Source: Prevotellaceae bacterium (GTDB lineage: Bacteria > Bacteroidota > Bacteroidia > Bacteroidales > UBA932). Taken from it: a stretch of DNA of 38,070 bases. Each line of letters opens with the position of its first letter. Positions within the stretch are counted from its first letter, which is position 1. A model generated the notes under the pieces. It worked only from the letters and a program-made list of their open reading frames with translations. It searched no databases and was not told the origin of the DNA. Both the position numbers and the translations under genes were made by a program. This document shows positions 36,286 to 38,070 of the stretch, piece after piece. The stretch covers positions 1 through 38,070 of the forward strand of contig JAIRMW010000038.1 in NCBI GenBank assembly GCA_031258415.1, in the 5' to 3' direction.

Positions 36286-36316
36286 TTTGCACTTTCGGAA
36301 TTTTCTCGTACCTTTG
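36286..36316 (+). promoter_or_regulatory. Bacteroidetes-type promoter TTTG-N19-TACCTTTG upstream of the 36631 gene
   Basis: TTTG 36286..36289; TACCTTTG 36309..36316; ends 2 bp before the distal inverted repeat. Confidence 0.7.
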
Positions 36317-36318
36317 TT

Positions 36319-36348
36319 TTACTTCTGATAATATACATTATCGGAAGT
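36319..36348. repeat. Distal arm of 30-bp exact inverted repeat pair
   Basis: TTACTTCTGATAATATACATTATCGGAAGT, reverse complement of 36512..36541; itself nearly palindromic. Confidence 0.92.
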
Positions 36349-36417
36349 AGTCCGAACACTCTTTCCAAAATATTTTTTCAAAATTATAAAGTCAAGCGTA
36401 TTATAAATGTGTTTTAA

Positions 36418-36449
36418 GGGGGATTTTTGTCTGTCCCCCGTCTTTTTTT
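36418..36449 (+). terminator. Rho-independent terminator between the inverted repeats
   Basis: GGGGGA-TTTTTGTCTG-TCCCCC-GTCTTTTTTT. Confidence 0.75.
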
Positions 36450-36511
36450 GAGTTCCGTCTTTCCTCTGTGTCGTCATATCAAGCCTCTGTTTTTGTTATT
36501 ATTACAAGCTC

Positions 36512-36541
36512 ACTTCCGATAATGTATATTATCAGAAGTAA
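36512..36541. repeat. Proximal arm of 30-bp exact inverted repeat pair
   Basis: ACTTCCGATAATGTATATTATCAGAAGTAA, reverse complement of 36319..36348. Confidence 0.92.
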
Positions 36542-36630: not shown

Positions 36631-38070
36631 ATGAGAAAAATATTTCTGTATCCCTTGTTATTCCTCTGTTTAACGCCTGTTTTCGGACAGTCGATCGAGG
36701 TCGAAATTCAACATCTTGGCGCCAATTATTCCGCGACGCCTCCTACCGTTACGTTCGAGGTTTTCTGGGACGCCGCGCCTACATCTCCTCGCCACCGCGA
36801 TACGGTCTGGCTGTTTGTCGACGTCCAGCCGATTAATCCCGATAACTCGGTGGGCGCGTGGCGTCCCGCTACCATTACCGCCGTGGCGCCGCCGCTCGGC
36901 GCGGGCACGGTCATTCCTTCTTCGCTCAACGGACGCGGCTTTTACCTCGACGGGCATACGGGCGCCGTCCCGTTCAGTTCGACGCTCACCGTGTCGCTAA
37001 GCCCCGACCTCAACGGCGCGAAGTTCAACTGGTGCGCCTACGCCTCCGACTACCCGCCCAACGCCACCGAAGGCGCCGGGCATTACGTGCTGCACGGTAC
37101 GCCGCCCTTCGTGGTCAATGGCGATACGCTGGCGCCGGGCGTCCGCGCCTTCACCGGTTGCATCGACGTCCTGACCGACGCCACCGGCTGTCCGGGGCTC
37201 GTGCCGGCGAGACCGGTCGTTACGGCCTTCGTCGCCACGCCCGATACCATTTGCGCAGGCGATACGGCGGCGCTCACGGCTACGGCCACCGGCGCGTCGG
37301 AATACAGCTTCGACGGCGGCCAGACGTGGCAGGCGGCGCCGACCGCAAGGGTCGCCCCGACGAGTGATACCACTTATAATATATATGTGCGCAACGGCGC
37401 CGGCTGCACGGTAACTGCGACAACGGCGATAAAAGTCTACCCGATGCCTGTGCCGGCGTTCGTTTCCGCGCCCGACACGGTATGTTCGGGCAGCGTTGTG
37501 ACGGTTGTCGCCGGCGGCGGCGCCTCGTACTGCTTTACCCATACCTGCGAGGGTTGCGCCCACAATCCCTACCACACCGGCAACGATACGCTCCCCGAAT
37601 TTGAGTGCCGGTTTAGCGGCGCAAGCTGCTCCTACAGTTCCTCCGGCACGTATCGTTTCACGATCCCCGACGGCGGCAGCACCGTATGGGTGCGGGTAAT
37701 GAGCGAGCACGGCTGCCTCGACAGCATCTCGACGTTTATAGCCGTGGGCGGCAAGCCGACCCCGCCCGCGCTCTCCGGCGGCGTCTATTGCGGCAGCGGC
37801 GCCCTGTCCCTGTGGGGGCTGAGCGGCTACAGCTACCAGTTAGTTAATCCGGTGAACAGCCAAAGCGAAGGCGCGGAGGAATTGGGCGCCGGCGCTCCCA
37901 TCTACTTCCCCTTCACCCTGCCCGGCACTTACAGCTACGCGGTCAGGATCACCGAGCTTTCGTCGGGATGCACAAACACGAGCAGCCCGCAGACGCTGCA
38001 CATTCACCCCGAGTTCTTTCCCGGCTCGATCGACGCCGGCAGCGATACGGTTTGTTACGGCGCGTCGGTC
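36631..38070 (+). CDS. Secreted Ig-like repeat surface protein, 3' end beyond the window; paralogue of the 313..1980 gene
   Basis: Open frame from ATG 36631 to window end: MRKIFLYPLLFLCLTPVFGQSIEVEIQHLG...HRDTVWLFVDVQPINPDNSVGAWRPATIT...FNWCAYASDYPPNATEGAGHYVLHGTPPFVVNG. Missing from the ORF track because no stop lies in the window. Confidence 0.85.
   Translation, partial: MRKIFLYPLLFLCLTPVFGQSIEVEIQHLGANYSATPPTVTFEVFWDAAPTSPRHRDTVWLFVDVQPINPDNSVGAWRPATITAVAPPLGAGTVIPSSLNGRGFYLDGHTGAVPFSSTLTVSLSPDLNGAKFNWCAYASDYPPNATEGAGHYVLHGTPPFVVNGDTLAPGVRAFTGCIDVLTDATGCPGLVPARPVVTAFVATPDTICAGDTAALTATATGASEYSFDGGQTWQAAPTARVAPTSDTTYNIYVRNGAGCTVTATTAIKVYPMPVPAFVSAPDTVCSGSVVTVVAGGGASYCFTHTCEGCAHNPYHTGNDTLPEFECRFSGASCSYSSSGTYRFTIPDGGSTVWVRVMSEHGCLDSISTFIAVGGKPTPPALSGGVYCGSGALSLWGLSGYSYQLVNPVNSQSEGAEELGAGAPIYFPFTLPGTYSYAVRITELSSGCTNTSSPQTLHIHPEFFPGSIDAGSDTVCYGASV

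Follow-up and report, generated by a model that had tools for sequence, protein, structure and literature searches.

Terminator-based invertons are known from Clostridioides difficile (PMC2784873), in which the cwpV locus, inverted by RecV, has its promoter outside the invertible DNA and an intrinsic terminator in the OFF transcript (PMC2784873). In Bacteroides fragilis, the master invertases Mpi, Tsr0667 and Tsr19 act in trans on many promoters (PMC4747536). Tyrosine recombinases are also linked to phase-variable type I restriction-modification hsdS loci, of the PsrA type (PMC7096588), and inverton group 145, composed of hsdS and a tyrosine recombinase, is common to Bacteroidota and Firmicutes (PMC11892184). 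We analyzed a stretch of 38,070 nt from a Prevotellaceae bacterium (the window; contig JAIRMW010000038.1 of assembly GCA_031258415.1), the right end of which carries a leader element in front of a surface-protein gene. We consider it likely that this element belongs to a dispersed family of site-specific inversion switches that control large secreted proteins in the manner of cwpV and are served in trans by an HsdS-type recombinase.

The closest known system in mechanism is cwpV. The two have in common a fixed promoter just outside the distal repeat and a surface protein, together with a recombinase encoded elsewhere (here a candidate) and an intrinsic terminator in the (here predicted) OFF transcript, and they resemble each other in the segment itself, which in cwpV is ~195 bp long with neither promoter nor ORF inside. 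However, the cwpV terminator spans the repeat/segment junction whereas here it lies inside the segment, and the present element further differs by its ~25 copies per genome, its 28-bp dif-like sites and the open frame of its presumed ON orientation, as well as by phylum and recombinase. With the B. fragilis master invertases, likened by description, it would share the use of a single recombinase for many dispersed surface loci; there, the promoter (or a coding cassette) inverts, whereas the present promoter stays in place and it is the terminator-bearing leader that would invert. The likeness to hsdS loci lies in the recombinase family (60-71% identity to hsdS-linked genes) and in the arm sequence, once over 21 identical nucleotides, but coding cassettes are reshuffled beside the recombinase at those loci, as opposed to non-coding leaders at distant loci here. 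The near-palindromic 11+6+11 site and its core are similar to those of XerCD/dif, from which the element differs by being multi-copy, with inverted pairs upstream of genes. The case combines a cwpV-like leader logic, a master-invertase-like dispersion and an HsdS-type site, and we file it within the invertons. A limited literature search returned no description of a terminator inverton from Bacteroidota, nor of one multiplied to ~25 loci per genome.

The features of the locus are collected in Table 1. The initial annotation had described two exact, nearly palindromic inverted repeats with a promoter just outside the distal one, and this geometry was confirmed: the 30-nt repeats are 100% complementary over a 163-nt spacer, within each arm lies a 28-bp near-palindrome (ACTTCTGATAATATACATTATCGGAAGT or the reverse complement thereof) with a Xer/dif-like 11+6+11 layout, and the promoter TTTG-N19-TACCTTTG ends 2 bp left of the distal arm. 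The asymmetric spacer gives the 28-bp site a direction, so that the two can be said to be inverted relative to each other.

Table 1. Features of the leader element and of the gene that follows it in the window
Feature	Position	Strand	Description	Basis
Conserved outer-left segment	36250..36318	+	Carries the fixed promoter; outside the invertible part; copies mostly 94-98% identical	Sequence
Fixed promoter	TTTG 36286-36289; TACCTTTG 36309-36316	+	TTTG, N19, TACCTTTG	Sequence
Distal inverted repeat	36319..36348	+	28-bp Xer/dif-like site 36321-36348, ACTTCTGATAA TATACA TTATCGGAAGT	
Small ORF	36319..36477	-	52 aa, MTTQRKDG...KKYFGKSVRTTSDNVYYQK*; antisense in this orientation, exits through the repeat	
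Putative invertible segment	36349..36511	.	163 bp; common (presumed OFF) orientation in the window	
First hairpin	36394..36415	+	AAGCGTAT-TATAA-ATGTGTTT; upstream of the terminator	Alignment, centroid fold
Intrinsic terminator	36418..36449	+	7-pair stem, U-tract GUCUUUUUUU; faces the gene in this orientation only	Pattern scan, folding
Proximal inverted repeat	36512..36541	-	Site 36512-36539, opposite orientation	
Gene presumed to be regulated	36631..38070	+	Runs off the contig	

The window's own genome (G000) is a MAG of 1.84 Mb in 166 contigs, 68% complete, and carries ~20-25 near-identical copies of the unit formed by promoter and segment. A 401-bp query gave 54 matching stretches in G000, many of them stopping at contig ends, and the 28-bp site pattern occurs there at 28 places against none for a reversed control pattern, which excludes a chance origin of the site. 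The conserved unit consists of ~69 bp with the promoter, a site, 163 bp and a second site, the outside promoter being conserved in every aligned copy. When 60 related genomes were searched, clear matches beyond G000 were found only in two genomes of the same genus, G003 and G008, with single weak matches in G044 and G050. Both same-genus genomes display the same architecture; they are Prevotellaceae bacterium Nc350_bin165 and Cc175_bin23, respectively, names that we take to be those of a termite-gut MAG series, and all three genomes are fragmentary MAGs. Scanning 300 genomes of the family for the site gave 26 occurrences in G000, 15 in G003 and at most two elsewhere, with a pattern that misses G008 owing to the variant core GTAACA present there. 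In Rfam, no bacterial family was found for the element; only a microRNA model matched, weakly and far below its threshold, and these matches are driven by the long inverted repeat. Some paired sites have a different setting. On contig C101 of G003 (L052, 4312-4529), a pair of the same type lies upstream of a SusC/TonB-receptor-like gene with no TAnCTTTG promoter beside the site; on C99 of G003 (L051, 47-263), the sequences flanking the pair form inverted repeats of their own; and C59 of G000 (L016, 3117-3335) bears a decayed copy in which one arm is degraded and neither site has an adjoining promoter.

Wherever contigs reach the gene side (C140, C131, C38 and C133 in G000; C62, C78 and C95 in G003; C125, C130 and C4 in G008), they lead to a single gene family. 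The gene in the window encodes a signal peptide and a genus-specific N-terminal domain (~190 aa), followed by weak Ig_7-like (CHU_C-associated) repeats. On contigs extending beyond the right site, the gene that follows shares this signal peptide and N-terminal domain; Ig_7 and CHU_C domains (type IX secretion, T9SS), or Lcl_C, are found among the members, and relatives end in Lcl_C or CHU_C. All nine genomes of the genus have this family, each with 12-138 matches, and a test of four genomes from other genera found none. Another member (555 aa, Ig-like) stands at the opposite end of the window on the minus strand (313-1980), with no site pair upstream. In the leader of the same family, L241 (G003 C108), L234 and L217 (G006) display a different inverted-repeat pair (GATTGATTAACTTATACTGT; TTTTTTGATTAAATTTCTTGTTTAATCAAA; TAGTTAATCAAAA), ~225-315 bp apart, possibly a second inverton class in the genus. 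Same-genus genomes devoid of the inverton (L218, L227, L236, L237 and L240, from G001, G005 and G002) have a conserved, self-complementary leader of ~300 nt, ~300 bp before the surface gene, with the motifs TTTATTC, AAACGTGG ... CCACGTT and GAATAAAAGTTGCC, more divergent in L240; this leader gave no Rfam match and may be a structured regulatory RNA.

To determine how the segment is oriented, each copy was read outward from its promoter through the adjoining site, which gave 31 readable copies in the three genomes. Against the constant outside, both orientations of the segment were found: 27 copies are oriented as in the window (17 in G000, five in G003 and five in G008) and four are inverted (two, one and one), with inverted promoter-site-segment junctions on C126 and C146 of G000, C107 of G003 and C209 of G008. 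These counts compare copies across loci and not the states of one locus, since the flanks of the inverted contigs are distinct, marking them as other loci rather than one locus seen twice. Inversion at the window's own locus is what these sequences would predict.

The orientation of the segment bears directly on the terminator. The initial annotation had placed a rho-independent terminator between promoter and gene, and had argued that inversion would bring its T-tract to the wrong side of the stem; both points held. No terminator-like site other than the hairpin GGGGGATTTTTGTCTGTCCCCC+GTCTTTTTTT was found in the region; it lies on the plus strand only (one found, 0.2 expected), with a folding energy of -13.8 kcal/mol (z -2.8). 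Its T7 tract begins 3 nt past the stem, a gap that caused a strict terminator scan to miss it, and it was detected by a pattern scan. The first hairpin varies in sequence among copies with pairing mostly kept, as judged by eye. Using a common rule of stem and U-tract, we found AAGCGC-TTTTCGG-GCGCTT followed by 4-5 T on C16, C114, C95 and C62 of G003, and a similar terminator on C45 of G000, in the common orientation only in all cases. In G008, the copies have a hairpin at the same place but, in the OFF orientation, it is followed by no canonical U-tract; a terminator accounts for G000 and G003 and perhaps not for G008. From terminator polarity only, which sets the ON and OFF labels, the common orientation is probably OFF.

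In the mechanism that we propose, the fixed promoter, of the Bacteroidota type, would start transcription at or inside the distal repeat and, in the common orientation, the transcript would meet the one-way intrinsic terminator and stop (OFF). Strand exchange between the two 11+6+11 sites would flip the 163 bp. The U-tract would then no longer lie downstream of the stem, the open frame and its conserved A-rich leader would be in sense and read across the proximal repeat, and the polymerase would continue into the gene (ON). A single recombinase would act in trans on all copies.

Two other explanations of the element were weighed. In Bacteroidales, invertons usually take the form of invertible promoters (PMC4747536; PMC11892184), and the initial annotation had pointed to a TAATTTTG box within the segment that inversion would direct at the gene, which would then be driven as in the B. 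fragilis capsule loci. The box is indeed found on the minus strand at 36379-36386 of the window, where it would face the gene after inversion, but it has no TTTG at the -33 distance and is lost in copies C133, C14 and C111a, so that the second part of the claim fails and an internal promoter was rejected. No conserved inner promoter was observed, whereas the outside TAnCTTTG promoter is present at 31 of 31 readable copies from three genomes, a count that is partly by construction as copies were called from this promoter, which the aligned copies display independently. A classical invertible promoter is thus, in our view, improbable. Even more so is a mobile element of the MITE kind, with the 30-bp inverted repeats as its termini and no regulatory inversion, which we can hardly credit: it would account for many near-identical copies with terminal repeats, yet homology is not confined to the element but takes in the promoter (69 bp and more) and, on C131, reaches the gene side, the element always stands between promoter and gene wherever the gene is on the contig, and the inner part is inverted relative to the constant outside in four copies.

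A terminator switch served in trans calls for a recombinase. The initial annotation had proposed looking for an invertase gene, and this search provided a candidate in G003 and G008 and none in the 68%-complete G000 assembly. The candidate, which makes up a third class of recombinase within the genus, is a XerA-like tyrosine recombinase of 267 aa (85% identical between G003 and G008), found in none of the six same-genus genomes without the site and adjoining hisS, named from its sequence, in both. R126, K148, H214, R217, H240 and Y249 are invariant; matches to XerA/XerC models are below cut-offs, and XerA-type structures were matched (4a8e, 5hxy). A search of G000 for hisS, run without a positive control, returned nothing, and with hisS missing too, the absence of the recombinase from this assembly says little. 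The recombinases of G000 comprise a partial XerD-like gene, a 387-aa integrase (C15) and a weak fragment (C109), with no Resolvase-family match that would indicate a serine invertase. The C15 integrase (Arm-DNA-bind_5/SAM_5) was rejected, its closest same-genus matches being ~26-36% identical over partial length and not tracking the element, and C109 was rejected as weak. A long low-complexity coding repeat (ALSSAQVALSSAQAALSSAQ...) starts at 2927 on C15 (L048), beside the integrase.

Homologues of the 267-aa protein with 60-71% identity occur in Bacteroidales, Chryseobacterium, Treponema and Clostridia (Bacteroidota, Firmicutes and Treponema), and the ones inspected closely have hsdS genes around them, as in G023 and G024 where the gene is between hsdS genes. 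At 78 such recombinase loci, excluding the two same-genus ones, the arm RCTTCYGATAA, with TTAT correctly spaced from it, gave 73 sites in 47 loci, against a median of one site in one locus for 142 permuted arms, a few of which reached up to 45; we attribute the high-scoring permutations to the same Clostridial sites. Most readable sites at hsdS loci encode the HsdS motif SDNxHY (SDNxHYE), so their conservation there is not wholly driven by recombination. At locus L163, from Muribaculaceae, ACTTCTGATAATATACATTATACGCAGT marks the start of a silent hsdS cassette; this site is identical to that of the window over 21 nt and is preceded by unrelated sequence. Judging from these sequences, the 267-aa protein is the best candidate and probably an HsdS-type invertase acting in trans. 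It probably belongs to the same family as inverton group 145, which was matched by description, as was PsrA. Overall, the proposal of a phase-variation inverton, OFF as presented, for a surface protein gains support from the orientations (27 versus 4), the one-way terminator and a candidate invertase family that uses the same site.

The small ORF is antisense in the window and, after inversion, would be in sense between promoter and gene. Across copies, the inverted orientation contains an open frame of 40-60 codons running out through the repeat. In 20 of 20 complete copies taken in this orientation, the ATG lies 62-85 nt inside the element, in most cases preceded by a conserved A-rich stretch, and the frame is open to the second site or past it. 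The chance of an open frame in shuffles is 5-19% for each of nine divergent representatives, which are partly related, so that these probabilities do not simply multiply. The pN/pS ratio of the ORF is 1.25 in G000, 1.84 in G003 and 0.55 in G008, and a functional peptide was rejected, with no amino-acid purifying selection in two of the three genomes and a mild one at most in G008. The ORF reads TSDNVYYQK where HsdS reads SDNLHYEG, in the same frame; a homology between them is suggestive only and was set aside, as the site is open in two of its three frames and several G003 copies use the other one. Judging from the open frames and the pN/pS ratios, it may be the frame rather than the peptide that is under selection, a lead towards translation-dependent read-through.

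This lead could be taken further, to a switch in which ON-state ribosomes on the small ORF would shield the leader from Rho and the OFF leader, untranslated, would be terminated by Rho. The open frames and their shuffles, the conserved A-rich start region and the unconserved amino acids of G000 and G003, as would be the case if translation counted rather than its product, would all fit, and G008, lacking the U-tract, would be accounted for. Rho is moreover known to act on an inverton leader at C. difficile flgB (PMC7446863). Against this stand the good intrinsic terminators of G000 and G003 in the OFF orientation, the relatedness of the nine representatives and the low pN/pS of G008, and we regard a translation switch as rather doubtful. 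As for the enzyme, host XerC/XerD might act on dif-like sites with the HsdS-type recombinase uninvolved. A 28-bp palindromic site with a central hexamer has been described, and XerC of U. parvum inverts a phase-variable locus (PMC3599477). XerC/XerD-like genes are, however, also present in same-genus genomes without sites; the distribution of the 267-aa recombinase, in contrast, follows that of the sites, and the loci of its relatives carry the same arm. The 11+6+11 layout and the core ATAATGTATATTAT are as in what we take to be the E. coli dif sequence. No host dif site was identified, and exact core matches in other genomes are unrelated. We find the action of host XerC/XerD unlikely.

We thus retain cwpV-type inversion switches served in trans by an HsdS-type recombinase. 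Tentatively, and with less than even confidence, we picture a recombinase family that shuffles hsdS genes having turned into the genome-wide master switch of a surface-protein family, flipping terminator-bearing against translatable leaders, with an open frame of arbitrary sequence as an anti-termination device. If our reading is right, an uncultured, probably termite-gut lineage would have a repertoire of large secreted proteins switched ON and OFF in combination, and the element would show how one recombinase family may shift from hsdS shuffling to the control of surface genes.
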